DNA of 22,574 nt, from positions 1 through 22,574 of IMG/VR virus record IMGVR_UViG_3300031463_000237; one strand, given 5' to 3'. This document shows, one piece after another, positions 181 through 22,574 of this stretch. The first letter of the stretch is position 1, and every line of letters starts with the position of its first letter. Source of the stretch: a virus. The notes under the pieces are model-generated. The model had not been told where the DNA came from and made no database searches. It saw nothing but the letters and a program-made list of their open reading frames with translations. Position numbers and translations under genes: made by a program.

Positions 181-396
181 CTAAGGTTTATTTAATGCAT
201 ATGAATTAGCTACGTCACTGGTTTCCACCACTTTCTGTTTTTCCAGCCACTTCTCCAAATCACTCCGCCTGATCCTTACATTACGGTTCAATTTTAAATG
301 GGGTATCTGTTTTCTCTGCACCATCAAATAAACCTTCGCCTTGCTGATTTTTAGATATTCGGCAACTTCCGGAATTGTTAGTATTTCCTCCATCAT
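181..396 (-). CDS. Excisionase-family / MerR-like helix-turn-helix protein
   Basis: A 71-aa protein of the HTH_17 (excisionase DNA-binding) type. Residues 5-50 follow the family pattern: LTIPEVAEYLKISKAKVYLM forms the helix-turn-helix, followed by a wing (IPHLKLNRNVRIRRSDLEKWL) in which Arg/Lys residues contact DNA and the 'DLEKWL' helix closes the fold. Length is usual for small excisionases and plasmid regulators. The start overlaps the primase stop codon (ATGATG with TGA inside), so it is probably translated by coupling; the second Met is an equally good start. It is the promoter-distal gene of the block and lies beside tRNA-Lys, which fits a role in excision/integration control, but no integrase is visible and it could equally regulate replication genes. 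Confidence 0.8.
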   Translation of the reverse strand: MMEEILTIPEVAEYLKISKAKVYLMVQRKQIPHLKLNRNVRIRRSDLEKWLEKQKVVETSDVANSYALNKP

Positions 397-1322
397 TTCA
401 ACCCTAGCCTTTCTGCAAGATCATCCACCGCTTCCTTGAACTCCATGTGATTGAACTTCATCCAAAAATCTATTACTGAGCCACCCCCACAACCTGCAAA
501 ACAATTCCAGTAATTCTCTTTCTCGTTTACAGAGAAACTCGGTTTTTCATCATCGTGAAATGGACACCGCCCGATTCCTTTGTCATTCAGATCCACGAAT
601 TGTTCAATCAATTCTCGTACTGTTATCTTTTGCTTGATGCGCTCCCACATAGGAAGTCCTACATGGTCTTTTCCGTTTCCATTTACAAAAGGCCTTTTTA
701 TCGGCTCTTTGTATTGATATTTCATCACAATCTCCAGAGGTATCCTTCCAGCAGGTTTGGATAGTTCGATTAGTTGTTCACTTGAACTTGAAAAACCTGC
801 AAACTGATAACGGGTTCCAGATTTCCTGTGAATTCCGAATGGCAACCTTATACAACTTCCCGGACCTTTACTGACCGTTTGCTTTGGAAATACCTCGGCA
901 TCTATCCTAAATATCTTGGCGATTTCCAGCCCGAAATTTCTTGCTTCCTTACCTGATACTGGCTCCTCAAAGAAAAACCAGAGATGTCCTCCCCTTCTTG
1001 AATATTCAAGGTATGAAGGAAATAACAGATTTCTGAAAACAAACTCCAATCGATCAAAATTATCTTTATCGTCTGCATCCAGGACACAGAATTTTGCAGT
1101 GCTTTCTTTGCTGAGCGTGTAAGTACCAAGGGTTATTTTTCCGTTTAAATGCCGCTCAATCAAACGGGGAGTAACTGGCTCTTTGACACAGTAATAGACT
1201 CCGCTTGGAAGTTGTAAAGCAAAACAATCGTCCCTATTGATATAGGTTTCCATCATGTTTTCCGCCATCTTCTCGAAATCACTTTTTCTCTTTAACTCTC
1301 TATTTTGTTCTTGCTCTACCAT
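393..1322 (-). CDS. AEP-type primase with C-terminal CHC2 zinc finger
   Basis: A 309-aa protein in two parts. Residues 30-200 look like an archaeo-eukaryotic primase (AEP) domain of the kind found in mobile elements: an acidic LDADD motif (81-85) for metal binding, a basic SRRGGHLW motif (108-115), DAEVFPKQ (141-148) and a late RLPFGIH (159-165). Residues 236-309 look like the CHC2 zinc finger of DnaG-type primases: C253-x2-H256, then C274-x3-C278, followed by a conserved helical tail. The likely role is synthesis of RNA or DNA primers for the element's replication. The start is backed by a strong Shine-Dalgarno (GGGAGGTGA) ending 8 bases before the ATG. A stable hairpin (1345-1385) sits just upstream. 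Joining an AEP core to a C-terminal CHC2 finger is unusual, since CHC2 is normally N-terminal in DnaG. Confidence 0.8.
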   Translation of the reverse strand: MVEQEQNRELKRKSDFEKMAENMMETYINRDDCFALQLPSGVYYCVKEPVTPRLIERHLNGKITLGTYTLSKESTAKFCVLDADDKDNFDRLEFVFRNLLFPSYLEYSRRGGHLWFFFEEPVSGKEARNFGLEIAKIFRIDAEVFPKQTVSKGPGSCIRLPFGIHRKSGTRYQFAGFSSSSEQLIELSKPAGRIPLEIVMKYQYKEPIKRPFVNGNGKDHVGLPMWERIKQKITVRELIEQFVDLNDKGIGRCPFHDDEKPSFSVNEKENYWNCFAGCGGGSVIDFWMKFNHMEFKEAVDDLAERLGLK

Positions 1323-3142: not shown

Positions 3143-3824
3143 CTTTGACTAAAGGATGGGCTTGACCATCCCCTCCCCAGAAATAAATTGGAGTAGAAAG
3201 TTGACGACGGAAAGGAACCTCTAAAAAAGTCTTGTAATCGGTAAAAAGAAAGGGATAGTTCCCGATTTTATGAAAATCAAGCCACGCCCTAACCCTTTCT
3301 CTTTCTACATCAAGGACAAAAAGGACAACAGAAGAACAACCAAACCTTTCTTCAATTGCCGGAAGCACTTCTTTGTAACGAGCAATCTTGCTTCTTAACT
3401 TTCTGTAGAAGTTATCGGCTGTACAAAACTCGAAAAGAAGCATCTTCCCTGTCGAGTATTTGATACCCCATTCAGGGACAACACCGAAGCCAAAAAAGAA
3501 GCCAGTCTTGATAATCTCGCAATTTGGTTTTGAAAGAGCCAGTCTAACTAATCCTTCTGTACAAGCCAGCTCATGCTCAATATTTGGATCATAGAAATCT
3601 CCGTATTTCTTCATTCTCTTTCTAGGGACTGAGTAAATAAGTTTTTTTCCATACCATCGGGAGACGAGTTTTCCTTTTTTTACTAGACGTGGAAGCAAAA
3701 CCTCAACTCGCTTACTTCTTCTAGGCTTGCCATAAAACCACAAGACGTAATGATCCCTGGTAGCCCACTGAAACAAATGAGCAACCTCTAAGAACTCTTT
3801 TTGTGATATATAAGGTCTGGTCAT
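3120..3824 (-). CDS. Replication-relaxation-family-like protein
   Basis: A 234-aa protein taken to start at MTRPYISQ (3824), because GAGG lies 7 bases before that ATG; an upstream in-frame Met would add 33 residues without a better ribosome site and would run through a hairpin. Residues 1-75 look like a winged helix (ISQKEFLEVAHLFQWATRDH, then RRSKRVEVLLPRLVKKGKL). Residues 90-200 contain an EHELACTEGLVRLAL helix and VVPEWGIKYSTGKMLLFEFC, which resembles the degenerate nuclease-like half of plasmid replication-relaxation proteins (PF13814-type). These proteins act with coupling ATPases in mobilisation or plasmid copy control. The gene overlaps the ATPase gene, the usual arrangement for this pair. 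The family call comes from pattern recognition, not a search. Confidence 0.55.
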   Translation of the reverse strand: MTRPYISQKEFLEVAHLFQWATRDHYVLWFYGKPRRSKRVEVLLPRLVKKGKLVSRWYGKKLIYSVPRKRMKKYGDFYDPNIEHELACTEGLVRLALSKPNCEIIKTGFFFGFGVVPEWGIKYSTGKMLLFEFCTADNFYRKLRSKIARYKEVLPAIEERFGCSSVVLFVLDVERERVRAWLDFHKIGNYPFLFTDYKTFLEVPFRRQLSTPIYFWGGDGQAHPLVKDDGSITT

Positions 3825-9049: not shown

Positions 9050-9868
9050 TTATGCAAACTTTGCTCCTACTCCATACCAAGTAGAACCTACATATCGAAG
9101 GTTGATTACATTCATTTTTGATGCCGTAGTTGTAAAAGTGGGAGTAGTATTGTCTTGCCAAATAATAGTTGTGCTAAAAGATATTGTTCTGCCACCCGTT
9201 GAGTCTTGCAGTAAAAATAGCTCCAAAGCCTCACCCTCGCTAGGGTTTGAAATTGTAATAGTTACATTTCCAGTCAAAGTTCCCTTTTGCCTTGTTCCTT
9301 TATTCATATCTATTGTAATTGCTCCAGTAAGATTGCCGTTGTCATATACTCCGCCCACCCGTGGAGAAGCCGATTTACCTGTCAGAAGAAGTGGAATATA
9401 GGTATCATCTCCTGAAGCTGAAATTATTGGCCCACTTCCCGTTGCACTATTAGAAATAGTCAGTTCATTTACGGCTGAATCGACATAGGTTGTCTTTAAA
9501 ACCTCGTTGCCGTGTACATCTTGGAGTGCAACCGCATCAATTCCTCTTAATTTGTCATTGATCCTATTGATATGAGATTTAGATACAATACCGACCACCG
9601 TACATCCATTGGAATGAGATTTAGCAGATGAACCTTCCACACCTCTTGTAACACCTGTCAACTCATTTCCGGAAATTCCAGTGTATTCGATATATTCTAC
9701 TACGGATATATCTAGGTTCGCAGACCAATCAAGACATAAAAAGCCGCCAGTCGTTGGAAGACCTGAGACTGATGTAAGAACAATGCCCGTAGTTTGCGAG
9801 GCATTAATTCCGCCCGCAACGTTCAAGGTCGTACTAAAATTTTGAGGTAGGTCACGTAAACTTGCCAT
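9050..9868 (-). CDS. Tail fibre / distal tail protein
   Basis: A 272-aa, Thr/Ser/Gly-rich beta protein. The N-terminal part contains EYIEYTGISGNELTGVTRGV, a pattern widespread in phage tail/structural proteins that attach fibres. Residues 185-272 form a repeated-strand C-terminal domain (GTLTGNVTITISNPSEGEAL, then LRYVGSTWYGVGAKF), also common at the tips of tail fibres. It follows the nozzle gene and precedes the Gly-rich fibre gene, 6 bp away. No good Shine-Dalgarno is present; a CCTTATAA element lies 28 nt before the ATG. Confidence 0.65.
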   Translation of the reverse strand: MASLRDLPQNFSTTLNVAGGINASQTTGIVLTSVSGLPTTGGFLCLDWSANLDISVVEYIEYTGISGNELTGVTRGVEGSSAKSHSNGCTVVGIVSKSHINRINDKLRGIDAVALQDVHGNEVLKTTYVDSAVNELTISNSATGSGPIISASGDDTYIPLLLTGKSASPRVGGVYDNGNLTGAITIDMNKGTRQKGTLTGNVTITISNPSEGEALELFLLQDSTGGRTISFSTTIIWQDNTTPTFTTTASKMNVINLRYVGSTWYGVGAKFA

Positions 9869-9896
9869 ACTTCAATTGTCTTAAATCAAGACTTGG

Positions 9897-9905
9897 ATTA
9901 TAAGG
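9897..9905 (-). promoter_or_regulatory. CCTTATAAT element, 28 nt before the 9868 start
   Basis: The - strand reads CCTTATAATCC directly after the stop of the nozzle gene. TATAAT matches the -10 consensus, but there is no -35 at normal spacing: TTGACA lies only 9 bases upstream. The same element is exactly 28 nt from two other starts in this window. Confidence 0.5.
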
Positions 9906-11846
9906 TTATGATGTCAATCTGATTCGATTATCTGGTGGAAGAGGTTTCCCAGCAAGAAGAAGCCAGTAGAAAGAAAGACCTAAGAATTTAAAATCAGCAC
10001 TCGTACTAGAATCAATAAGTTGAAACTTTATTGATCTAGCCACTTTATTGAAGACAATTTCCATTGGTTGATCTGAATTTAGGGATGTGGTTGAAGCTCC
10101 TTCTGAATCCCCCGCCTTAAATCTACCAGGTATATCAAAGCCAGCTCCTATTCCAGAAACAAGGGGACTGATCCTAAACTCCCCTGAGGAAAATACTCCA
10201 TCATTGACGATATAACCCTTTATTGTTCCTCCCGAAACGTCTTTGAACCAAAAGTTGGGGTTCCTATACTGCTTATACTGATTAAAATATTTCTGCATGA
10301 AACTCTTCGTGGAGATTTGCCAATTGATTGCGGCTCCATTATCCGAAGTCCCAGTAAACATCTGAACAATATATCCTGAAGTTTCTGAGCAATAGTAAAG
10401 TTCTTCGTTTCCATTTGCGTCTGTATAGGTAAAGAATGAATTTGCATTTATTCCATCCCAATATCCTAGCCATGCTCCAAAACGGGCATCATAGACATAA
10501 CAGCGGTCATTGATTGTAGATGATCCATTTGCAAGAGAGACAATGTATAGGTTTCTGAAGTAGTAGGCACAAGAATTTCCTAGCTGTGCAAGATTGGCTG
10601 AATCAAGATAACTTCCAGCAGAGATTTTCAGGCTTCTTTCTACAGTTCTTAGAGCATTAAAATAGTTGGGCACATTTCCAAGGGAGATAATTGTAGCCTT
10701 ACCATCTTTCTTGCTAACAAACCAGAGATCATTATCGACAATTCTGATAGTTCGAAAACTCTCACACCCAAACTCGTTAGTTATTAGTTCGAGTTGGGGA
10801 AGACCTGTTGAAGTAAAGCTAAATTTCCAAATCGAACGGTGTTTAAAAACAATGACTACATTCTGGTAGAAAACAATGCCTGTTATTGAATCACCATCGT
10901 TTTTTGAAACATCTACCCACCCACCCGAATAGGCTGTGGAAAAATCATCTATTGAGGTTCCAAATCCTCCGTAATAAAGTCTGGAAGGATTTGAAGGATC
11001 ACCAGCAATAAATAATCGGCTCATGGCATAGATAATCATCGAACCCTTTTGCCCTGCGGTTGAATTGCCTTCAGGTGGTGTCAGAATTGTTGAAGGAGTA
11101 TCGGTTCCTTTATCGTTATAGAGATTGGTGGTGACAGTTGCCAATTTTGTTTCCCCAATACCATTATCGGCTGATATTTTTCTCCCGTAGACGTTATAGC
11201 CAACTGCGTTAGGTACCGCATCCCATTTGACCTCGTTGTAGTTGTTCGTATCCAGAGTGGCGTTGCCTGTTGTGGTTGTGACCGAAACTGAGGCCAGAGT
11301 TTCACCTGTATTGTTGAAGGCTGACACTCGATATGAATATCTAGTAGTTCCAGTGGTTCCTTTAGGAGTAACAATAACATTTGTGGGAGTTGTTAGCGCC
11401 GTAAAAACTGTTGCGGTTGGGACTCCCCCCACAATAGTTATCTTTACTAGATTGTCATAGCCATTTTCAACATAGAGAGTATCCCTGGCCATGGCAAACT
11501 CAGTCCGTTTACCAGCGGTCATAGTAGCCCCAGCTATTGCTGTGGGGACATTGGAGGCGTTGTAATACATTAGTGAAGTTCCACCCTCCCGAATGATGAA
11601 CCTATCTCCCGCCGAAGTGTAAAAAGAAGTTCCACCGAAAACTCTCGAACCCGATGAAGAACCAAAATTGTTAGTTCCTGGTCTCTTTTTGATTCCATCG
11701 ACTACCAAAATAGAGTTTTTAGAATCAGAAAGCTCATTATCATCAATCAAAGATTCATCTTGAAGTTTATTGACACCCTTAGCAAAGCCATAGATATAGG
11801 TCATCTGCTCGGGCGCATCTTTCATGGGTATCTTTAAGAATGTCAT
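9906..11846 (-). CDS. Tail nozzle-like protein with FN3-like insertion
   Basis: A 646-aa protein resembling the beta-propeller tail proteins of podoviruses (T7 gp12-type nozzle / stabilisation proteins). The N-terminus (GFAKGVNKLQDESLIDDNEL, then SILVVDGIKKRPGTNNFG) is the typical opening where the protein meets the adaptor. Later motifs (MSRLFIAGDPSNPSRLYYGG; ITGIVFYQNVVIVFKHRSIW; CYVYDARFGAWLGYWDGINA) are propeller blades. Residues 152-245 look like one fibronectin-III domain (TTPTNVIVTPKGTTGTTRYS, then VKWDAVPNAVGYNVYGRK) inserted in the propeller. It starts 6 bp after the adaptor gene. The product forms the channel end through which DNA leaves. Confidence 0.7.
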   Translation of the reverse strand: MTFLKIPMKDAPEQMTYIYGFAKGVNKLQDESLIDDNELSDSKNSILVVDGIKKRPGTNNFGSSSGSRVFGGTSFYTSAGDRFIIREGGTSLMYYNASNVPTAIAGATMTAGKRTEFAMARDTLYVENGYDNLVKITIVGGVPTATVFTALTTPTNVIVTPKGTTGTTRYSYRVSAFNNTGETLASVSVTTTTGNATLDTNNYNEVKWDAVPNAVGYNVYGRKISADNGIGETKLATVTTNLYNDKGTDTPSTILTPPEGNSTAGQKGSMIIYAMSRLFIAGDPSNPSRLYYGGFGTSIDDFSTAYSGGWVDVSKNDGDSITGIVFYQNVVIVFKHRSIWKFSFTSTGLPQLELITNEFGCESFRTIRIVDNDLWFVSKKDGKATIISLGNVPNYFNALRTVERSLKISAGSYLDSANLAQLGNSCAYYFRNLYIVSLANGSSTINDRCYVYDARFGAWLGYWDGINANSFFTYTDANGNEELYYCSETSGYIVQMFTGTSDNGAAINWQISTKSFMQKYFNQYKQYRNPNFWFKDVSGGTIKGYIVNDGVFSSGEFRISPLVSGIGAGFDIPGRFKAGDSEGASTTSLNSDQPMEIVFNKVARSIKFQLIDSSTSADFKFLGLSFYWLLLAGKPLPPDNRIRLTS

Positions 11847-11852
11847 GTTTCA

Positions 11853-12503
11853 TTAAAATTCTTCATCCGGGTCATTAATCCCAAAATTTGACCAACCGGC
11901 ACCTCTCATTCCCTGTTCTTGGTTCATCTGGGCGACGATTGATTCAAATTCCTGCATAGGGGCAACTGCTTTAGCTTGCTGGGAAATACTCATCCAGTAA
12001 CGAGCCTCAGCATATGCAGCCAGGGCTTCCGTATATTCATCGGGAATAAGGAAAGTTCCTCCATCGGGAACCTTCGTCGCTCTTTTCCAGTATTTGATTT
12101 GGTGGACTGAGCCATCGCCCGAATCAATAGGCAAGAGGTAATATTTTCCTCCAAAGCGGTAAAACTTATAAGAAGTATGAACCGTGGGAAGTCGGACTAC
12201 TGCTCCAACTCCTTGATAAACTCTATTCTTCTTGTAAGGGATTTGATCATAGTAAATATTGTTGATTTTAAGTTCTATAAATTCTTTGCAGTCTGCAGGT
12301 TCATTATAGCCTGTGGTAGAACCAGTATTAATGTTCGAAGTGTTAGATGCCTCCAACCACCACCAATTTCGTCTCCTTGATATATCGAGATATCCAAGAT
12401 TTAGCCATTCAAGCCTCTGGTTCTTGGTCGTTGAATCACTGGGAGCTGCAGTCTCGCCCAAGCGATATGCAAGTTGTAATTGTAGATCATTGGTATCCAC
12501 CAT
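11853..12503 (-). CDS. Tail adaptor (head-to-tail connector) protein
   Basis: A 216-aa protein of the podovirus adaptor type (T7 gp11 / tail tubular protein A-like). Signs are an N-terminal helical pair (LQLAYRLGETAAPS, then NQRLEWLNLGYLDISRRRNW), a central beta part where aromatic residues cluster (YKFYRFGGKYYLLPI, IKYWKR), then IPDEYTEALAAYAEARYWMS and a helical end. Adaptors dock under the portal and hold the nozzle, encoded next. It has no clear Shine-Dalgarno; CCTTATAA lies 28 nt before the ATG. Confidence 0.75.
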   Translation of the reverse strand: MVDTNDLQLQLAYRLGETAAPSDSTTKNQRLEWLNLGYLDISRRRNWWWLEASNTSNINTGSTTGYNEPADCKEFIELKINNIYYDQIPYKKNRVYQGVGAVVRLPTVHTSYKFYRFGGKYYLLPIDSGDGSVHQIKYWKRATKVPDGGTFLIPDEYTEALAAYAEARYWMSISQQAKAVAPMQEFESIVAQMNQEQGMRGAGWSNFGINDPDEEF

Positions 12504-12531
12504 ACTTAGAGTTTATGAAGATACCCTTTAT

Positions 12532-12540
12532 TTTATAAGG
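12532..12540 (-). promoter_or_regulatory. CCTTATAAA element, 28 nt before the 12503 start
   Basis: The - strand reads TCCTTATAAAAT, overlapping the stop codon (TAA) of the large virion gene. TATAAA is a plausible -10. No -35 is found at 16-18 bases. Spacing to the adaptor ATG is 28 nt, identical to the other two copies. Confidence 0.5.
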
Positions 12541-15500
12541 AAGCCTTGGCTGTCTTATATTGATCCACCTTTAATTTTAAAGGCTTACCCTTGTAACTGA
12601 AGGCGGGTACATTCGCCCTCAAAATCGGAGCTTTTAGTGTTGATCCTACTTTTGGCAGAGGGAGCTTGACATTGCTAGCAGCATTTACTGCCTTTAGTGT
12701 ACCCCAAACATTAATTTTCTTGGCTGTGTTGGATTTAGTTTTATTTGTAGCAGGAAGTGCACTTTGTAATTTGGCAATTTCGTTTTTAGCCTGGTCCAAA
12801 CTAATTTGGTTGTCTTGATAAAGAGCAATAATATCGTTCATCCTGGTGCTTAGGGCTGACTTGTATGAGGAAATTAATTTTTTATCAATTGTGTCATCTC
12901 CTGTTAGGATTGGAAATTCGATTGGGGTAGATAGGTCAATATTTTTAACCGAGCCTGTATCAGGGTTGACCAAAATATATTGCCCTAAACTTGATGTGCT
13001 AGTAGTAGAAGCCATATTTGGTGTTGGAACGCTTCCTGATGCACTTGGTGATGTCTGGGATAGGTCTATTGTGCCTCTTACCTTCTTTCTAACTTGTGTT
13101 ACCACAGAGTTGATTGCATTAGCTTTGTCCTCATCGCTTAGAGCCTTGTAACCGCTTGAATTAAAGAGTGCCTGAAGTTGGGCGGTCACTTCTGGACCAA
13201 TTGCTGCTTCTAGAGCGTTGAGTTGTTCTGGTGTGAGTGTTTGTTTTACCCCGTTAATTGTCTGATTTTTGGTTAGTGCGCCTGGTGTTGCATTACTCCC
13301 GATATTATTTAATCTGGCTAACTCATCTACTACTTGATTGTGGATGGGAGTTTTTGAATTAAACAAATCTATATAGGCATTTATTCCTGTTGGTTCTTGA
13401 GGAATGATATTCCCAAGGACATCCCTTTTGGGAAGCATTGTGTTTCTTACCCCTGGAATACTAGCTTTGATATAATCCATTGAACTATTCATTTCTCTGG
13501 CATATGGATCAAAAGCCTTGGAGGTATCTTTGACAAAGTTGGGAATAGGTGAGGACATGAGGTTTCCTACATAACTCTTACCATATCTAGTCGGGTCGGT
13601 AAGGGCGGCAAGTGGTTGCTGAATTCCTGCAAGAAATGTCTGATTGAGCTGGTCTTTCCCCAGTCCCATTGCATATGCTCCAACCGATCTGTCAGGTTTG
13701 CTCATTTCTTCGTTATATTTTGCCCCAGCAAGAAGAACTAGATTTTGGGGACCAATTGAATTGATTGATCTCCATTTTCCGCCGATTAAGACTGAATTGC
13801 TCGGTTTATTCTCAAGTTGCCACTGATGAGCTTCAGCTGCATCTTTGGGTTGCCCCGTCATTAGTCCTTTACTCATGAGATAAGCTCCTAAAGCAAAAAG
13901 ACCTGTTCCCATTACTCCTCTACCGACCTCCTGAGCTGCCTGACGTTGCAATTCAGGCATTGGAACCTTGCTCAGCATTACTCTACCTACATCTATCGCA
14001 CCTCTCACAAGTCCAATGGGAGAATAGGAGACTGTCTTACCGGCAATTGATGAAGGAACTCCTGTAAAAGGAGCCACAACTTCTGCCGGTAATTTCGTGT
14101 ACCATTTTTGTCCAGCCCATCTCTTGATACTACTGGCAAGCCCCGATAGTTTGTTCGGATCGTGGAAAGTTGCATAGTTTGCATCTTTTGTGGCGGTTGT
14201 CAACATTTGTTCTGTGGGGTTTTTAACTAAATTCTCAATAAAAGCTTTGTCTCCAGCTTTACCAGCATTTATCGCCATAGCCCCCGCCTGATCATATAAA
14301 GACCTGGCATATGCTGTTTTCCAGAAAGGTTTATCCTCAGCTCCAAGAGTTCTAAAAACTGCATCTGTATATTTTTTGAGAGCTTGTTCTACGGGATTTT
14401 TACCCCAATTGATCTGTCTGATCTCAAATTTTGAGATTGATTCTTCAGGATCAAAACCCATAGTGACAATGTCTTTTGCAGACTGTAACCCTTGTTTAAG
14501 TCCTTCTCCTGTTTTGAGGTTGAAAGTGAGAGTTCTCTGACCCGTTTTCTTACTCATCAGCCAATCCATTGGAGCTGCAACAACATCTTTTGCAACTTCG
14601 GACGCCCCCATGATCGTATTACCCAGCAAGTTTCTTTCATGAGTTCTAAGAGATGTAAGAAGTCCAGCCTTCCAGGTCGTAATGATTTTGTCGGTAATTG
14701 AACTTGGTATGAATTCGTTGATCTTGGTCATTAATCGATTGATAGCGATATTTCTCTCTCTTCCTTCCGGAAGTGCATCAATCGCTTTTACACCATCGCT
14801 TATTATTTTTTGCTGTTCTCCTGTAAGCTCTGGTATTTTCTTCCATGCCGTCTTGTTATATTCCTGAATTCTGGCTGCCACCGATTTTGAAATAGCTTCA
14901 GGACTCATCTGATCTAGTAGGGAGTACGCATGTACGCCACGACCTAATTCTGTTCCGTACCTGGCTAGGTTGTTATAAAGGTTGGCTGCCGCATCGTGAT
15001 TGCCAAGTTTGTCCTGGTTGATAGCCTCTTGAATTGTGGCTGCTACTTTCTGGTCTATATTTTTGACATTTTTAAAATCAATTTTTGATCCTTCGGGTAA
15101 GTTCTCAAGTAGCACCTTTGCTTCACCCATAAGTTTTACATTAGATTTTGGTTTGTAAGTTCCCGATACCCCAGCTTGTGTCTCTTTGGTGACGTTTGGA
15201 GATTCTTTAACCGAGCTGACAAAACCTCTCTCCTTTGTACCAGGTGCTATACTCTCTGCTAATGAGGGATTTTTTAACGGATTTTTTGTTTCCGGCACTA
15301 CTGGCTCCACTGGCCTTTCTGTTACTTGCGGGCTTGATACTTGGGGTTGCGGTTCTATTTGGGGGGTTTTAACTTCTCCCACCCCAGTTATCCCTCCTTG
15401 TCCTTGTACAGGGGGTTGTTCAGGTGGTGCTTCCTTTCCTGTTACCTTCTTGTAATCTTCTGGGGTTAATTTAGAAACATCTTGAATACTGTTTCCAAAT

Positions 15501-16597
15501 GGTTGATTCCTCAATCTATACTCCAACATTGTCATTGTTACCCTTTTCCCCGTCTTGGGGTCAATCTCGGTGGTTGTTACTGGAATCGTCCAGTCGCGAA
15601 TAGTTTTTTGTAGTGCGTTTACAACTGCTGTACGAGATTCTCTATTTATTGCCGTATTCCATGTTCCCCTGATTCCTGCAGTTCCTACATTCATTAAAAG
15701 CGTACTTGGCATATTGTTTAACCAATCCTTCATAAATGAATTTTGTGATTCTTGATCTAATCTCCCTAAAATTGTCATTGCAGTATTCTGTACCGGCGAG
15801 TCGGCTAATGCTTGCAAGAACAACCTCTTAAACCCCTCTTTAACCTGGCCTACTGCAAAAGGTTGCGTAACTAATTTAGAAGTTAATTGCGGAGCAACTC
15901 TCGCTAGGGCTAATTCTGTAATAGCATTGCTAAGTGGTGCTATACCAGAAAACTCAAACCCTCCTGCTGCATTTTCCATCAAACTGGACTTTGTTATCGG
16001 TTTCCCTTGAAGTAGGTCTGTCCCTGCACCTATTGCAGTTCCAAGCCCTGTTCCTATGAGTGCGTTACCTGCCATTTTCAAAGCACCACCACCAAGAGGC
16101 GAAGTCATTGCCGTCAATGCAATTCCGCGTCCAATCTTTTCCGATGTTCTCTCCGCTGCCGTCTGTGGATTCGTTATCGCTTCTTGTGCTTTGAGTGGTG
16201 AATTAAAGGCCTGAAACGGAGTAACACTTAATGCTCCACGTATTCCATGTCCTACTAAGTTTGATACCTGTCCCACTTGTTGTGGGGTGTAATTTGTATT
16301 AAATAGATTATTACTTAATCTTCTAACACCCTCACCAACAGCTAACGTATCGGGAACAATGGTTGATTTCATAGAAAGTGGTGTAAAAGTCTGCCACGGA
16401 GTATTTTTTATGTTTTGTACACCTTTTCCTATTGGTTTGACTACATTTTGTTGTACATTTACCAACGTATTAGCCACTGGCGTGCTCCAAAAGTTTTGAC
16501 CATTATTAGAAGTCGGGTTAAAATATTGAACTGCGTTTCCGATCTTTTGTTCAGCTACTCCAAGTAATTCACGAAGCTTGTCGGCAAATGTCTTCAT
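12533..16597 (-). CDS. Large internal virion / ejection protein (about 1354 aa)
   Basis: The longest gene. I start it at MKTFADKLRE (ATG, 16597); an in-frame TTG 21 bases upstream (16618) would add seven residues. The protein is helix-rich. A Gly/Ala-rich stretch at 150-230 (NALIGTGLGTAIGAGTDLLQ) could insert in a membrane. A Pro/Gln/Val linker lies at about 395-455. A long conserved-looking core covers 620-1120 (LRTHERNLLGNTIMGASEVA, GVMGTGLFALGAYLMSKGL, GGKWRSINSIGPQNLVLLAG). The end is Ser/Thr- and Lys-rich. Such proteins in podovirus tail loci are internal virion or ejection proteins, or phage polyvalent proteins (the core resembles LPD38-type regions). No enzyme motif is recognised. It lies between the 357-aa protein and the adaptor. 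Confidence 0.65.
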   Translation of the reverse strand: MKTFADKLRELLGVAEQKIGNAVQYFNPTSNNGQNFWSTPVANTLVNVQQNVVKPIGKGVQNIKNTPWQTFTPLSMKSTIVPDTLAVGEGVRRLSNNLFNTNYTPQQVGQVSNLVGHGIRGALSVTPFQAFNSPLKAQEAITNPQTAAERTSEKIGRGIALTAMTSPLGGGALKMAGNALIGTGLGTAIGAGTDLLQGKPITKSSLMENAAGGFEFSGIAPLSNAITELALARVAPQLTSKLVTQPFAVGQVKEGFKRLFLQALADSPVQNTAMTILGRLDQESQNSFMKDWLNNMPSTLLMNVGTAGIRGTWNTAINRESRTAVVNALQKTIRDWTIPVTTTEIDPKTGKRVTMTMLEYRLRNQPFGNSIQDVSKLTPEDYKKVTGKEAPPEQPPVQGQGGITGVGEVKTPQIEPQPQVSSPQVTERPVEPVVPETKNPLKNPSLAESIAPGTKERGFVSSVKESPNVTKETQAGVSGTYKPKSNVKLMGEAKVLLENLPEGSKIDFKNVKNIDQKVAATIQEAINQDKLGNHDAAANLYNNLARYGTELGRGVHAYSLLDQMSPEAISKSVAARIQEYNKTAWKKIPELTGEQQKIISDGVKAIDALPEGRERNIAINRLMTKINEFIPSSITDKIITTWKAGLLTSLRTHERNLLGNTIMGASEVAKDVVAAPMDWLMSKKTGQRTLTFNLKTGEGLKQGLQSAKDIVTMGFDPEESISKFEIRQINWGKNPVEQALKKYTDAVFRTLGAEDKPFWKTAYARSLYDQAGAMAINAGKAGDKAFIENLVKNPTEQMLTTATKDANYATFHDPNKLSGLASSIKRWAGQKWYTKLPAEVVAPFTGVPSSIAGKTVSYSPIGLVRGAIDVGRVMLSKVPMPELQRQAAQEVGRGVMGTGLFALGAYLMSKGLMTGQPKDAAEAHQWQLENKPSNSVLIGGKWRSINSIGPQNLVLLAGAKYNEEMSKPDRSVGAYAMGLGKDQLNQTFLAGIQQPLAALTDPTRYGKSYVGNLMSSPIPNFVKDTSKAFDPYAREMNSSMDYIKASIPGVRNTMLPKRDVLGNIIPQEPTGINAYIDLFNSKTPIHNQVVDELARLNNIGSNATPGALTKNQTINGVKQTLTPEQLNALEAAIGPEVTAQLQALFNSSGYKALSDEDKANAINSVVTQVRKKVRGTIDLSQTSPSASGSVPTPNMASTTSTSSLGQYILVNPDTGSVKNIDLSTPIEFPILTGDDTIDKKLISSYKSALSTRMNDIIALYQDNQISLDQAKNEIAKLQSALPATNKTKSNTAKKINVWGTLKAVNAASNVKLPLPKVGSTLKAPILRANVPAFSYKGKPLKLKVDQYKTAKASL

Positions 16598-16625
16598 GCT
16601 CTTAGTTTGAAATATCAAGGGCTAA

Positions 16626-16634
16626 TTTATAAGG
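16626..16634 (-). promoter_or_regulatory. CCTTATAAA element, 28 nt before the 16597 start
   Basis: The - strand reads GTCCTTATAAATTAG in the short gap before the large virion gene. Spacing to the ATG at 16597 is 28 nt, which also supports that ATG over the upstream TTG. No -35 box is seen at normal spacing and the ATG has no good Shine-Dalgarno (only TAAGAG). Confidence 0.5.
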
Positions 16635-16666: not shown

Positions 16667-17740
16667 TCAGGCTGAGATATTAAAGGAGTTAAGATAGTCT
16701 TGATAATTCTTGTACCATTTACCATTGGACCAAAAACCCGAGCCCACATCTTGGTTTGACGTTGGAAGCGTATAGGTTGAATTACCAGTGGCTGTAAGGT
16801 TGGCCAATAGTCGTGAGACATTATTAGCAGTAGTATCGCCTGTAATACCCTGAATTGAACCCAAAGTTGGATTAAGTAAGGAAGCAATCGTTAAAGCTTG
16901 ATTTCTAATGTTATCAATGGTGCTTTTAATTGCTGCTGCACCAGAAATATCATTATTGGCAAGGGCTGCAGTAATAGCATTCTTGCCAGCTTGGTATTGA
17001 AGAGCTAAGTTTGCAAGAGATGATTCAGCCTGTTTCTTATAGGCGTTAATGTTTTGTTCGATTGAATTTATATCCTGTGCTTGAGCGGTTTCTGTTGCAG
17101 CTCTATTTTCTGCTAGAGATTGATCTGCTCTGGCCTGTTGTTCACCGAATGCCGAGCTATCTAAAGTACCAAGAGATGAAAAGGTACCCTGTCTTTGCCT
17201 TCCCAAATCTTGGTAGGTTTTAAGCATATTGGCGAGAATATTTGAGTAACGGGTATTAACATCCGTTTTCTGTTTCTCTCCTGCTTGAACGGCTTCGTCA
17301 ATTGCGTTTTGAATATCTGTCTTCCCTTGTCCATAACTCTGCTCTAAGAGGGGATTCATGGCTTCTATTTGAGCCCTAGCCTGTTGATAGGCTGCATCGG
17401 TAAGATTGACATCTTGGTTGCCATTTGTTGTGGGAATAATTGTTCCCCCACTTGAAGGAGTGGTGGAAGGACCTGAAGAAGTGGGGACAGGATTAGGATA
17501 GCCTTGATTAGAATATGCACCAGAATATGGGTCAGATTGCATGGGGCCTGTCTCAGCTGCTTTAACCGTCCCAACTGGATTAAGAGCACTCCCAATTTTG
17601 CTGAGTGTCTCAGAAACATGCAATTCAGGAAGCTGAACCCGAACAGGAGCTCCACCAATAGGATATACGTATAGAGGTCTATTTAATAGATTACCTGCTG
17701 TTGTAGCTGCTTGCCCTAGTATTTTACTAAAAACTCCCAT
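16667..17740 (-). CDS. Coiled-coil virion protein (internal virion candidate)
   Basis: A 357-aa protein. Residues 1-60 are mixed, with an amphipathic start (MGVFSKILGQAATTAGNLLN). Residues 60-115 are a low-complexity Pro/Ser/Thr/Gly linker. Residues 115-290 are long Ala/Gln-rich helices (DAAYQQARAQIEAMNPLLEQ; AAGKNAITAAL-type repeats), consistent with a coiled coil. The last 40 residues are aromatic-rich (GSGFWSNGKWYKNYQDYLNS). Position between capsid genes and the 1354-aa ejection-type gene suggests a second internal virion/ejection protein. The start codon has no Shine-Dalgarno, and a TATTAT -10 sits 7 bases upstream, so its own transcript would be leaderless. Confidence 0.55.
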   Translation of the reverse strand: MGVFSKILGQAATTAGNLLNRPLYVYPIGGAPVRVQLPELHVSETLSKIGSALNPVGTVKAAETGPMQSDPYSGAYSNQGYPNPVPTSSGPSTTPSSGGTIIPTTNGNQDVNLTDAAYQQARAQIEAMNPLLEQSYGQGKTDIQNAIDEAVQAGEKQKTDVNTRYSNILANMLKTYQDLGRQRQGTFSSLGTLDSSAFGEQQARADQSLAENRAATETAQAQDINSIEQNINAYKKQAESSLANLALQYQAGKNAITAALANNDISGAAAIKSTIDNIRNQALTIASLLNPTLGSIQGITGDTTANNVSRLLANLTATGNSTYTLPTSNQDVGSGFWSNGKWYKNYQDYLNSFNISA

Positions 17741-17757
17741 GTTTGCTATAATAAATT
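17741..17757. promoter_or_regulatory. Shared symmetric -10 element of a divergent, leaderless gene pair
   Basis: The + strand reads TTTGCTATAATAAATT. TGCTATAAT (17744-17752) is a perfect extended -10, with TTTACT (17723-17728) as a possible -35 at 18 bases. The - strand of nearly the same bases reads TATTAT (17753-17748), five of six matches. Starts 6-8 bases downstream on each strand fall on or beside the two ATG codons (17758 on +, 17740 on -). Neither ATG has a Shine-Dalgarno. Confidence 0.55.
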
Positions 17758-17922
17758 ATGAAACGTTTAATATATCTTGTCGTTGGGGGACTAATAACGT
17801 TAATTTTTATGGAATTACCGTTTCCTGATTCTCCCCCAGCTTCGACAATCGTTGCTCTTCTCTACATCATAATCTGGTTAGGATTAATTCAGCTTCTCAG
17901 AACAAAGACTGTTCTACGCTAA
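17758..17922 (+). CDS. 54-aa double-span membrane protein, antisense moron candidate
   Basis: MKRLIYLVVGGLITLIFMEL, a PFPDSPPAST turn, then IVALLYIIIWLGLIQLLRTK and a basic tail: two hydrophobic helices with positive ends, so a membrane hairpin with both ends inside. It is the only + strand gene within the virion gene block and has a perfect extended -10 five bases before its ATG, so it would be expressed on its own as a leaderless mRNA. This is the usual make-up of a moron, for example a superinfection-exclusion or small envelope protein expressed from a prophage. A holin is the alternative. Function is inferred from position only. Confidence 0.6.
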   Translation: MKRLIYLVVGGLITLIFMELPFPDSPPASTIVALLYIIIWLGLIQLLRTKTVLR

Positions 17923-17928
17923 ATCAGG

Positions 17929-17943
17929 TTCTTAATCCAAGAA
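17929..17943 (+). repeat. Small hairpin after the antisense membrane gene
   Basis: TTCTT-AATCC-AAGAA lies 6 bases after the + strand stop. The stem is short and AT-rich with no T-run, so terminator function is doubtful. Confidence 0.2.
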
Positions 17944-17962
17944 TATAATGTAGGTCTCGGGA

Positions 17963-17970
17963 TTATAAGG
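17963..17970 (-). promoter_or_regulatory. CCTTATAAT element after the 52-aa gene
   Basis: The - strand reads TAATCCTTATAATCCC, beginning one base after a stop codon, as at two other copies. The next start (17740) is over 200 bases away, so the 28-nt rule does not apply here. Confidence 0.35.
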
Positions 17971-17971
17971 A

Positions 17972-18130
17972 TTATTTTTTATTCTTCTTGACCACTAAAG
18001 GTTTGACTGTTTCCACTGGTTTTTCTTCTACTTTGGGTTCTGGTTTCCCTGGAACAAAATCCACAACTCTCCCGCTTCCTTGCGCTCCTTTTGGAGAACC
18101 CGTTGGAATAAAATCTTTAAATTCTGCCAT
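17972..18130 (-). CDS. 52-aa Lys/Pro/Val-rich small protein
   Basis: MAEFKDFIPTGSPKGAQGSG, then RVVDFVPGKPEPKVEEKPVE and a basic tail (VVKKNKK). It has no hydrophobic span and is probably disordered. The Shine-Dalgarno is perfect and extended (GGAGGTGATTAACG before ATG), so translation is well supported. It overlaps the end of the glycosyltransferase gene by 14 bp. It is not recognised; small disordered basic proteins next to capsid genes may be minor virion or DNA-binding proteins. Confidence 0.65.
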   Translation of the reverse strand: MAEFKDFIPTGSPKGAQGSGRVVDFVPGKPEPKVEEKPVETVKPLVVKKNKK

Positions 18131-18824
18131 CGTTAATCACCTCCATTCTCTGATATATCTTTTTCCCCTTGGTTTTATAAGGGACAAAGTGTCTAAAATC
18201 CAATTCTGTTATCAAATGACCTTTTCCGTCCAGGTGTCCAGTTTTGACATTCGGATCACAATAGAGTTTATAGCCAGCTTCCCACATCCTTCTGCAAAAC
18301 CCAACATCTTCACCGATCTTTGAGAGAGTATCAAGAAGAGGATCGTGAAATCTCGGTGTTCTTAATTTCTTTATTGCATCGACTTTAATTACTGCACAAA
18401 ACAACCCAATTCCGTCCACTTCAAAGGTATCGTCTGGATAATCGATAATGGGTGAATATTTCTCATGAATTTTCTTCCCTTTCCTGTAGGTCTTGCACTT
18501 TAAACAAGTTGGAGCAAATGGGGGCTTCTTCATAAAGGCAATACCAGAAATAAAGTCTTTGTCTTGACTAATCAACCTCCGGAAGGAATTAACAGGGAAT
18601 ACCATATCATCATCTAAAAACCAGATGTAATCAAACCCACCCTCTAAAGCAGTATTTACAAGTTCTTCTCTAGCCTCCACAACTGGTTTTCCAGTAACTG
18701 TAGCAAGAGCAAAATGATAATCCTTGTATTCTTGTTCAAAAAGAAAAGTCCCCAAAAGACTAATCACAAACCCTTCATTCCAGGTGTGATCCCTCTTGGG
18801 AATTGCAATTAAAACTTGTTTCAT
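18117..18824 (-). CDS. GT-A fold glycosyltransferase (GT2-like)
   Basis: A 235-aa protein. FDYIWFLDDDMVFP (64-77) holds the DxD motif (D71-D73) that binds the metal and sugar nucleotide. VDGIGLFCAVIKVDAI (136-151) and SKIGEDVGFCRRMWEAGYKL (168-187), with E172-D173 as the likely catalytic/acceptor acidic pair, then CDPNVKTGHL (189-198) with H197, complete the GT2-type pattern. CLKCKTYRKGKK (107-118) adds a Cys pair of unknown role. No membrane span. It sits between capsid decoration and ejection-type genes, so it may glycosylate a virion protein or modify the host surface. The ribosome site is modest (CAGGA). Confidence 0.75.
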   Translation of the reverse strand: MKQVLIAIPKRDHTWNEGFVISLLGTFLFEQEYKDYHFALATVTGKPVVEAREELVNTALEGGFDYIWFLDDDMVFPVNSFRRLISQDKDFISGIAFMKKPPFAPTCLKCKTYRKGKKIHEKYSPIIDYPDDTFEVDGIGLFCAVIKVDAIKKLRTPRFHDPLLDTLSKIGEDVGFCRRMWEAGYKLYCDPNVKTGHLDGKGHLITELDFRHFVPYKTKGKKIYQRMEVINDGRI

Positions 18825-20383: not shown

Positions 20384-21286
20384 TCATTTCATTCCGAGTT
20401 CTTTCTTGGCTTCTTCAGCCGCCTCGTGAATGGATTTTGGCTGTGAGTTTGCAGCCGCCGACTGGGGGGATGAATTGACACTGGGGAACTTAGTGGCTCT
20501 AGTTCTAGCCGAATTAGATAGTTCCTCCTTGCCCTCTGTTTTAGCCTTCCCAATAAGCGCATCAACTGTATCAATGGCTTCTCTCGTAGCTCCAACTGGG
20601 TCCTTCGTCCATTCTGGATTTGAAAAGACCACCCTGGCTACCATCTCACCGAAGGTTATCGTTCTTCCGTCCTTAAGTTGATAAGTCAACTTCTCGTCGT
20701 TCAACCTCGGGTCGACTTTTTCTGCCTCTAAGATACCTGTTTCAAGTTGTTTTTGTTGTTCAGACGCTTGATTCTTCTGATCCAACCGGTTCAAAATTAC
20801 TTTTGCTCCAAGTTGCATCATCTTAATTGCATCTTCCGAGTACCCCTCCCTTTTCAGCTCCATTTCTAGAGCTTGTAAATCGGGGTCAACTTGATTTTGT
20901 GCGTTTTGTGGGGAAAGCATCTCCTCCACAATCGGAATAAGATGTTGATACTTGTCGTATGCTTCCGCTTTAGTCTTTAAAGACTCTACAGCTTTACGGG
21001 CTTCAGCAATTTCTTGCGTTTTCCTGGTAAAGGCTGCTTGCATCTGCTTATACGCAGGTTTCAACTCTTCAGGCACTTGATTGGGGTCGAAAAATGTATC
21101 TTCCGATTTTCCCAAGTCTTCGGGTTTCCCTGCCTCAACTCCATCTTGGGATTGACCCGAACTATCTGATTCTGGCTCTGTCGTTGTACTGGTAACGGGT
21201 GTGGAGGCTGTACTACCTTCATCACTTGTCGTTACGAGAGTATCTGCACTCGCCGTATTGTTATTATCTGTATCTATGTTAATCAC
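20384..21286 (-). CDS. Capsid scaffolding protein
   Basis: About 300 aa, acidic and highly helical. Residues 1-65 are Ser/Thr/Asp/Glu-rich and disordered. FFDPNQVPEELKPAYKQMQA (65-84), then AFTRKTQEIAEARKAVESLK (85-104), is a strong coiled coil typical of podovirus scaffolds. The tail is basic (ESIHEAAEEAKKELG-type). It comes directly before the major capsid gene. The start is uncertain: the coordinate uses GTG (21286), but AGGAGG is only two bases away from it; ATT (21283) or ATA (21277) in the same frame have better spacing. Confidence 0.75.
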   Translation of the reverse strand: MINIDTDNNNTASADTLVTTSDEGSTASTPVTSTTTEPESDSSGQSQDGVEAGKPEDLGKSEDTFFDPNQVPEELKPAYKQMQAAFTRKTQEIAEARKAVESLKTKAEAYDKYQHLIPIVEEMLSPQNAQNQVDPDLQALEMELKREGYSEDAIKMMQLGAKVILNRLDQKNQASEQQKQLETGILEAEKVDPRLNDEKLTYQLKDGRTITFGEMVARVVFSNPEWTKDPVGATREAIDTVDALIGKAKTEGKEELSNSARTRATKFPSVNSSPQSAAANSQPKSIHEAAEEAKKELGMK

Positions 21287-21375
21287 CCCCTCCTAAGAGT
21301 CCCTAAAAGGGTTATTCTTTGGTAAGAAAACCAATTAGGGGGTTCTAGCCTGAAATTAACAAATAAGATTGGGGA
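21287..21375 (-). promoter_or_regulatory. Leader of the scaffold gene with two small hairpins
   Basis: Between the zinc-binding protein gene and the scaffold gene lie TTGGT...ACCAA (21319-21334) and CCCT-AAA-AGGG (21301-21311), then AGGAGGGGGTGA. The region starts after a CCTTATAAT element that overlaps the upstream stop, so transcription could begin here about 80 nt before the scaffold start. Confidence 0.4.
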
Positions 21376-21383
21376 TTATAAGG
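21376..21383 (-). promoter_or_regulatory. CCTTATAAT element overlapping a stop codon
   Basis: The - strand reads ACCCTTATAATCCCC, the TTA TAA being the last codon and stop of the zinc-binding gene. TATAAT fits a -10; no -35 at normal spacing. It precedes the scaffold leader. Confidence 0.35.
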
Positions 21384-21973: not shown

Positions 21974-22574
21974 TTTGCATTCCACCTCCTTGTCCTATCT
22001 GGCCATTGGGTATTGGAGTTGGCACTCCCTGTCCCGAAGTGCCAACACCCAAAGCTGGAGTTGCTTGCTTGCTTATTTCTTGTGCTATTGCTCCTGCTAG
22101 TTCCGGATTAGTCTGTGAGATTTGCTGAATAAATTGTTGAACTCCCTTCTTTTGGATTTCCTGAATCGAAGTTAAATAACGATCAGCATCTTTCTTGCCA
22201 AAACCATTTTGAAGTGTATCTTTCCAAATCTCTAGTAAGTTTAATAGACCTGGATGAAGTCTCTCACTGTTTAGGGCGGTGTCAAGTAGATCAAGTGCAT
22301 CCTGTTTCATTTGTACTTTATTGATCGAAAGCGATTCAACTTCAATATCAAGCTTTGCTAGTAAATGATCATCTGCCAAGACTGAAAGGACTTGTTGATT
22401 AACATTCGCATCCTCACCGAATACCTCTTTAGTTAGTGGATCATCGGGCTTCCAGTTAACCCCGATCTGTTTAAGTTGGAAGAGAATAATTTGCCTGATA
22501 AACCTAGCAATCTTCTTTCTCTTGCGTCGCACATTCCTATCGGCTGCTTCAGCATAAACTGCAATGCCTCTCGG
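21966..22574 (-). CDS. Portal protein, C-terminal part (5' end outside window)
   Basis: An open frame of 202 aa that continues past the right edge; an internal GTG (22532) is not a real start. RGIAVYAEAADRNVRRKRKK, then IARFIRQIILFQLKQI, is the arginine-rich helical crown/stem junction found near the end of podovirus-type portal proteins. It is followed by a helical domain (NQQVLSVLADDHLLAKLDIE) and a flexible Gln/Gly/Pro tail (IPNGQIGQGGGMQNG). Portals form the ring through which DNA is packaged and ejected. Position before scaffold and capsid genes agrees. The large terminase gene would be expected beyond the window. Confidence 0.7.
   Translation of the reverse strand, partial: PRGIAVYAEAADRNVRRKRKKIARFIRQIILFQLKQIGVNWKPDDPLTKEVFGEDANVNQQVLSVLADDHLLAKLDIEVESLSINKVQMKQDALDLLDTALNSERLHPGLLNLLEIWKDTLQNGFGKKDADRYLTSIQEIQKKGVQQFIQQISQTNPELAGAIAQEISKQATPALGVGTSGQGVPTPIPNGQIGQGGGMQNG

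Follow-up and report, generated by a model that had tools for sequence, protein, structure and literature searches.

The virion genes of an uncultured tailed phage are very probably served by a two-part, phage-specific promoter from which transcription is predicted to start at, or 2 nt before, the start codon, which would make the messages leaderless. The reading draws on the fixed register of an upstream word, a -10 downstream of it, a predicted +1 A, a position that is conserved between phages while the word itself turns over, a strand bias and an association with virion genes. In the proposed mechanism, sigma region 2 of the host's bacterial RNA polymerase would recognise a weak sigma70-type -10 (YANAMT, with A-11 and T-7 nearly invariant), and a phage-supplied factor would recognise, in substitution for the host -35, a box at -36..-29 that is particular to the phage. 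Initiation at the first base (A) of the start codon, or 2 nt ahead of it, would then give leaderless virion mRNAs for which a Shine-Dalgarno would be dispensable, and at a few sites, for example before the scaffold gene, an ordinary leader would be kept. The window, that is, the whole stretch of DNA that was analysed, is a 22.6-kb IMG/VR record (22,574 nt) encoding a primase, a protein with a weak terminase-like match, a CHAP lysin, a fibre, an internal virion protein, an SU10-type adaptor, a major head protein and a scaffold. The record breaks off inside the portal gene at 22574, where its end matches the 3' part of the ORF in portal position of the related phage G002.

The 8-mer CCTTATAA was found six times in the window (at 9898, 12533, 16627, 17963, 18175 and 21376), all on the - strand, which is the gene strand, and not once on the other strand. 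Dinucleotide shuffles of the window contained 1.16 ± 1.02 copies and never reached six, and among gene-strand 8-mers the word ranked second in over-representation (Poisson p = 7.6×10−6, uncorrected for 65,536 words); once corrected for all 8-mers, the bare count in the window was not significant. The count by itself could be luck, and the convincing part is the fixed register. An earlier note on this DNA had reported a gap of 28 nt between the end of TATAAW and the ATG at 9868, 12503 and 16597, and this distance was exact in all three; one 8-mer standing at one distance before 3 of the 22 gene starts was obtained in 1 of 5,000 random-register controls. Chance is rejected and the pattern is real. 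The note was also correct that the three genes are without a good Shine-Dalgarno, as none was found at any of them, and most window genes still use one. Its claim that a strong Shine-Dalgarno excludes the element did not hold, given that genes 18130 and 21286 have both. Of the two copies said to follow stop codons, the one at 17963 does so, but the one at 21376 contains the stop (TAA) of the upstream gene; the 12533 copy likewise includes the TAA stop of the gene upstream of it and the 9898 copy lies directly after a stop. The copy at 18175, described as intragenic, is indeed within a gene, but at its 3' end and 52 nt before the next start (18130).

A second conserved block, YAnnnT, lies 16 nt past the hexamer and ends 6 nt before the ATG. 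To keep the test from being circular, 26 sites in four phages were chosen by the upstream word only and then scored for other conserved columns. A-11 and T-7 were each present in 24 of the 26 sites (p = 2×10−10 and p = 9×10−13, respectively), +1 was A in 22 and -1 was T in 17, and Y-12 and, weakly, A-9/M-8 were also conserved. The TGn of an extended -10 was not conserved in these sites (-14 was G in 5/26). When 218 genes from ten related phages were examined, the distance of [TC]AnnnT to the ATG peaked at d = 6, as for a -10 of the TANNNT type. A-11 and T-7 are the most important bases of the bacterial -10. If the A-11/T-7 block is the -10, the word is thereby placed at -36..-29, which is the -35 position, and the start codon at +1, and the TATAAW within CCTTATAA is, in this reading of the sequence, part of a -35-position element and not the -10. 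The constant 28-nt distance would then follow from a transcript whose predicted start is the ATG itself or a position 2 nt ahead of it. A generic sigma70 scan did not detect these promoters, because their -35 words are not TTGACA-like.

The earlier note had instead taken TATAAT, which is identical to the -10 consensus, for the -10 itself, with a fixed leader, which would be some 21 nt long. This is very unlikely, considering that positions -41..-50 of the 26 sites were close to uninformative and held no -35 upstream of TATAAW, that an almost invariant A/T pair follows 16 nt downstream with an A at 29 nt, that the supposed leader would belong to three genes without a Shine-Dalgarno, and that the words standing in this place in other phages (GGATAAA, TTGAAAACC) are no -10s. 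The statement that no -35 could be seen at any copy is literally true, but only since the CCTTATAA element itself occupies the -35 position. The idea of a promoter was thus right and its anatomy, as to which hexamer is the -10, was wrong.

All six copies in the window fit the pattern of element plus -10, and the window's other strand has no instance of the complete pattern. Three of them, all on the - strand, are predicted leaderless promoters. The promoter of the fibre gene (9875..9905) consists of the element CCTTATAAT at 9905-9897, a 16-nt spacer and the -10 GACAAT at 9880-9875, with +1 at the A of the ATG at 9868. The gene (9050..9868, - strand) encodes a tail fibre-like protein of 272 aa with PHROG tail fibre matches, and orthologous sites were found in G001, G002 and G016. 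The promoter of the adaptor gene (12510..12540) has the element CCTTATAAA at 12540-12532 and the -10 TAAACT at 12515-12510, with +1 at the ATG at 12503, and has orthologous sites in G001, G002, G016 and G004; the product is an SU10-type adaptor of 216 aa (11853..12503, - strand; Pfam SU10_adaptor, 7.4×10−12). The third promoter (16604..16634; CCTTATAAA at 16634-16626, -10 CAAACT at 16609-16604, +1 at the ATG at 16597) precedes a gene for a 1354-aa protein (12533..16597, - strand). Similarly placed ORFs of 1436 and 1429 aa are present in G001 and G002, respectively, with comparable sites ahead of the large gene (28441 and 22718). The label of ejection-type protein given to this gene earlier was not confirmed, as there were no PHROG or Pfam matches to the 1354-aa protein, and a search for relatives with its sequence was empty.

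The other three copies, also on the - strand, are leadered. Before the scaffold gene (20384..21286, - strand; GTG at 21286 with a Shine-Dalgarno), which encodes a head scaffolding protein of 300 aa (PHROG 3927, 8×10−6) with orthologues of 48-54% identity in G001, G002 and L030, a predicted promoter (21353..21383) combines CCTTATAAT at 21383-21375 with the -10 TAATTT at 21358-21353 and a +1 at about 21346. Scaffold-gene sites were also present in G001 (24137), G002 (11884), L030 (9044), L006 (6695) and G005 (6547). The copy at 18152..18182, in the 3'-terminal part of gene 18117-18824, has CCTTATAAA at 18182-18174 and a -10-like TATATC at 18157-18152, which is poorer than the others and without T-7, making this the weakest of the six window sites; its predicted +1 at about 18145 would give a 15-nt leader with GGAGGTGA ahead of the ATG at 18130. 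The copy at 17940..17970 has CCTTATAAT at 17970-17962, the -10 TATTCT at 17945-17940 and a predicted +1 at 17933, and the next gene starts at 17740. No leaderless ORF begins at this predicted start, and gene 17740 would be preceded by either a leader of about 190 nt or a small RNA; Rfam gave no match in 17740-17933 (- strand). At gene 17740 itself (17740-17780, - strand), TATATT lies exactly 28 nt upstream of the ATG and TATTAT 7 nt upstream, perhaps a degenerate seventh copy; the counterpart of this gene in G001 (29562) has a full promoter copy upstream. From their sequence and the genes that they precede, we infer that these sites would be active as promoters and act late.

The closest relatives of the phage, all of them uncultured and with capsid proteins 69-79% identical, are G001, G002, G003/L006, G004, G005, L030 and L031, of which L030 and L031 are contigs binned in MAGs. 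The check suggested in the earlier note, a search of related phages for the 8-mer, gave a divided answer, with CCTTATAA itself absent or rare and other words present at the same register. Its scarcity was considered as a refutation and dropped after orthologous genes had been compared in their upstream regions. In the aligned regions upstream of the fibre and adaptor genes, each phage had its own word in the same place, namely CCTTATAAW in the window, ACTTATAAG in G002, TTTCCTATAWT in G001, GTCGCTCATAAT in G016 and GTTATAAT in G004. The word of G005, GGATAAA, was read from the sequence ahead of its fibre and adaptor genes; its top word in a de novo search was CCTGATC. The gap between hexamer and ATG was 28 nt in nearly all of the orthologous fibre and adaptor sites and 30 nt at the adaptor site of G016. 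A hexamer of the type [TC]ATAA/TATAT ended 28 nt before the ATG in 21 of the 218 genes from ten related phages (Poisson p = 6×10−15), compared with 0-5 genes, about 2, at each of the other distances (3 to 60 nt); of 254 genes in more distant phages, none had it at 28 nt.

Searching de novo for a word followed at fixed spacing by YAnnnT returned a private word at an equivalent register in the window, G001, G002, G016, L006, L030 and G020. In ten records, made up of nine from the family and the remote relative G017, 52 sites had both the word and A-11/T-7; the ATG was at +1 in 20 of them and at +3 in 11, and +1 was A in 44. No opposite-strand copy of a word with a -10 was found in the eight records counted on both strands. 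The word of G020, GTTAAAAA, lies one base off the register counted, hence none of its copies were scored with A-11/T-7. In G017, the arrangement TTGAAAACC-N16-YAnnnT was found, and in several genes the ATG coincided with +1 or lay 2 nt past it. The -10 was present at 5/6 TTGAAAACC copies, and in sequence terms this is the same architecture with a wholly different -35 word. Near-leaderless promoters of the form TTGAAAACC-N16-TATAAT-N8-ATG were observed in L048/L049 (G017). A private word for each phage at the same register strongly supports a phage-specific promoter class, as had been suggested in the earlier note.

The alternative raised there, an RNA-level element such as a processing or ribosome-binding signal, would be in line with the fixed distance to start codons but is hardly credible. 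Both blocks occur with the same spacing at leadered sites that are off the start register (21383 and 17970 in the window, 18104 and 37372 in G001), so that the -10/-35 geometry is kept even there, and the word varies across phages at constant A-11/T-7. Phage-specific words would also be expected for the promoter of a phage-encoded single-subunit RNA polymerase. In such a promoter the conserved bases would form one continuous sequence, not two blocks in a host-like -10/-35 geometry, and no Pfam RNA polymerase match was found among the large G001 ORFs scanned, which makes this reading extremely unlikely.

An archaeal promoter, in which TTATAA would be a TATA box about 30 nt before a leaderless start and would be read by TBP/TFB, has to be considered since the relative L030, with a capsid protein 79% identical, was binned in a Nitrososphaeraceae MAG, and since TA-rich signals about 30 bp upstream mark archaeal leaderless genes (PMC3160421). 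The best-conserved bases outside the upstream word are, however, A-11 and T-7, the hallmark of a bacterial -10, and the G017 word TTGAAAACC is no TATA box, yet is accompanied by TATAAT at the -10; the sites thus differ from archaeal BRE/TATA promoters, where TATA is the main determinant and a bacterial -10 is lacking. The capsid protein search gave only one archaeal (Nitrososphaeraceae, L030) and one Melioribacter (L031) MAG, each the sole match in a sample of about 300 genomes from the class concerned, none of the other 299 in the archaeal sample having the capsid gene, and given these single matches both placements are probably binning errors or contamination. Further, the tRNA-Lys of the window resembles copies in bacterial phages and plasmids, the products of the window include a CHAP lysin and a zinc ribbon of the DnaG type, and relatives encode a homologue of sigma region 4. 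Altogether, an archaeal promoter is highly improbable.

Returning to the two-part bacterial promoter, a candidate for the factor that reads the box was found just upstream of the portal gene, where a protein of 78-129 aa (family A1) is encoded in 7/7 related records covering that locus. As the window ends within portal, at 22574, this locus falls outside it, and a profile search did not detect the family in distant relatives. Sigma C-terminal regions (TIGR02937, TIGR02980) were the leading NCBIfam matches of the family, and Pfam Sigma70_r4 was matched by 5/7 members and r4_2 by 6/7, with values for Sigma70_r4 of up to 5.4×10−7 and with the scores shown for individual members below the curated cut-off. 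An AlphaFold2 model (core pLDDT 79-89) could be superposed on sigma region 4 structures over 69-73 residues with Z of 8-9, as expected of a region 4 fold, although Foldseek E-values for the model were only about 0.05. The targets include -35-binding domains crystallised alone, and on SigB region 4 the model residues 16-88 gave Z 9.0 over 69 residues at 2.2 Å. A sigma4-like HTH fold is common. As modelled, the protein resembles a sigma region 4 standing by itself.

The -35 is normally read by sigma region 4. Because of this, and because the -35 words are phage-specific and the protein co-occurs with the promoters, the family A1 protein is the best candidate for the reader of the box, and with confidence a little above even we infer that it binds there. 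More tentatively, its region 4 could replace that of the host sigma factor, combining a private -35 word with the host -10, in which case word and recognition helix would co-evolve and the messages would be leaderless. An alternative sigma factor of the host, with words that differ as hosts differ, is an unlikely reader. One complete sigma would account for both -35 and -10, but words differ between phages with 69-79% identical capsid proteins at a common -10 pattern, and the phages themselves have a conserved gene that encodes a sigma4-like domain. In G017 the promoter architecture is present and a family A1 protein was not detected, therefore another reader is possible there. A small HTH ORF of G001 (3387-3602) was rejected as reader, as the family A1 profile finds it at chance level only. 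A one-sequence scan with the sigma4-like protein gave no relatives outside its own contig.

The arrangement resembles sigma appropriation by AsiA and MotA of T4, where middle promoters keep the host sigma70 -10 and carry a MotA box in place of the -35 (PMC2988021). The MotA box, TGCTTtA, is centred at -30 and 12±1 bp from the -10, whereas the box described here is C(T/C)TATAWT-like, lies 16 bp from the -10 with its centre at about -32.5, has a sigma4-like candidate reader and would give leaderless transcripts. Bacterial leaderless genes of Actinobacteria and Deinococcus-Thermus have TANNNT about 12 bp before the start codon (PMC3160421); the phage sites share with them a -10 adjoining the ATG and the lack of a Shine-Dalgarno, but have in addition a constant, phage-specific upstream box. 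RinA and Ltr of Gram-positive phages are small DNA-binding proteins that activate packaging and virion genes from a sigmaA-type promoter, the Ltr sites being direct repeats between -107 and -32 at one late promoter (PMC13123087), in contrast to the single box at -36..-29 of each site and the many promoters per genome found here. The gp39 protein of Thermus phage P23-45 diverts the host polymerase from host -35/-10 promoters (PMC7403470); unlike in the extended -10 middle and late promoters of that phage, TGn is not conserved in the present sites. In the Bacillus subtilis SigO-RsoA system sigma function is split over two polypeptides, and Xpf is a small phage-linked sigma (PMC10141391), whereas the phages described here have a region-4-like piece only, with no region-2 partner identified. 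Within a limited literature search, no published description of this promoter class was found.

A promoter class of an uncultured phage family can thus be defined from sequence alone, and its pattern predicts transcription starts to the base and assigns start codons to genes that are without a Shine-Dalgarno. It would also provide an example, in phages, of virion genes moved wholesale to leaderless translation and, if a stand-in region 4 is indeed used, these genes would depend neither on recognition of a host -35 nor on initiation through a Shine-Dalgarno. The -35 words and sigma4-like proteins of G001, G002, L030, L031, L006, G005 and G020 form a natural paired series that should be useful for studying how sigma region 4 selects DNA.

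Some further features of the records were noted. The primase ORF of the window (393-1322, - strand) combines an AEP-TOTE domain with a C-terminal zinc ribbon of the DnaG type (CHC2). The tRNA-Lys (CTT) is of bacterial type and lies at the very edge of the record (39-113, + strand), near a 71-aa HTH_17 (excisionase-like) ORF (181-396, - strand), and a tyrosine recombinase is encoded in G001; the tRNA-Lys edge of the window may be where a prophage joins a tRNA gene. Near-identical copies of a small ORF (MNSETVIELVKLGLEK...) were found at L041:1312-1701 and G001:39810-40190, near both ends of the G001 record, which suggests terminal redundancy, duplication or assembly overlap.
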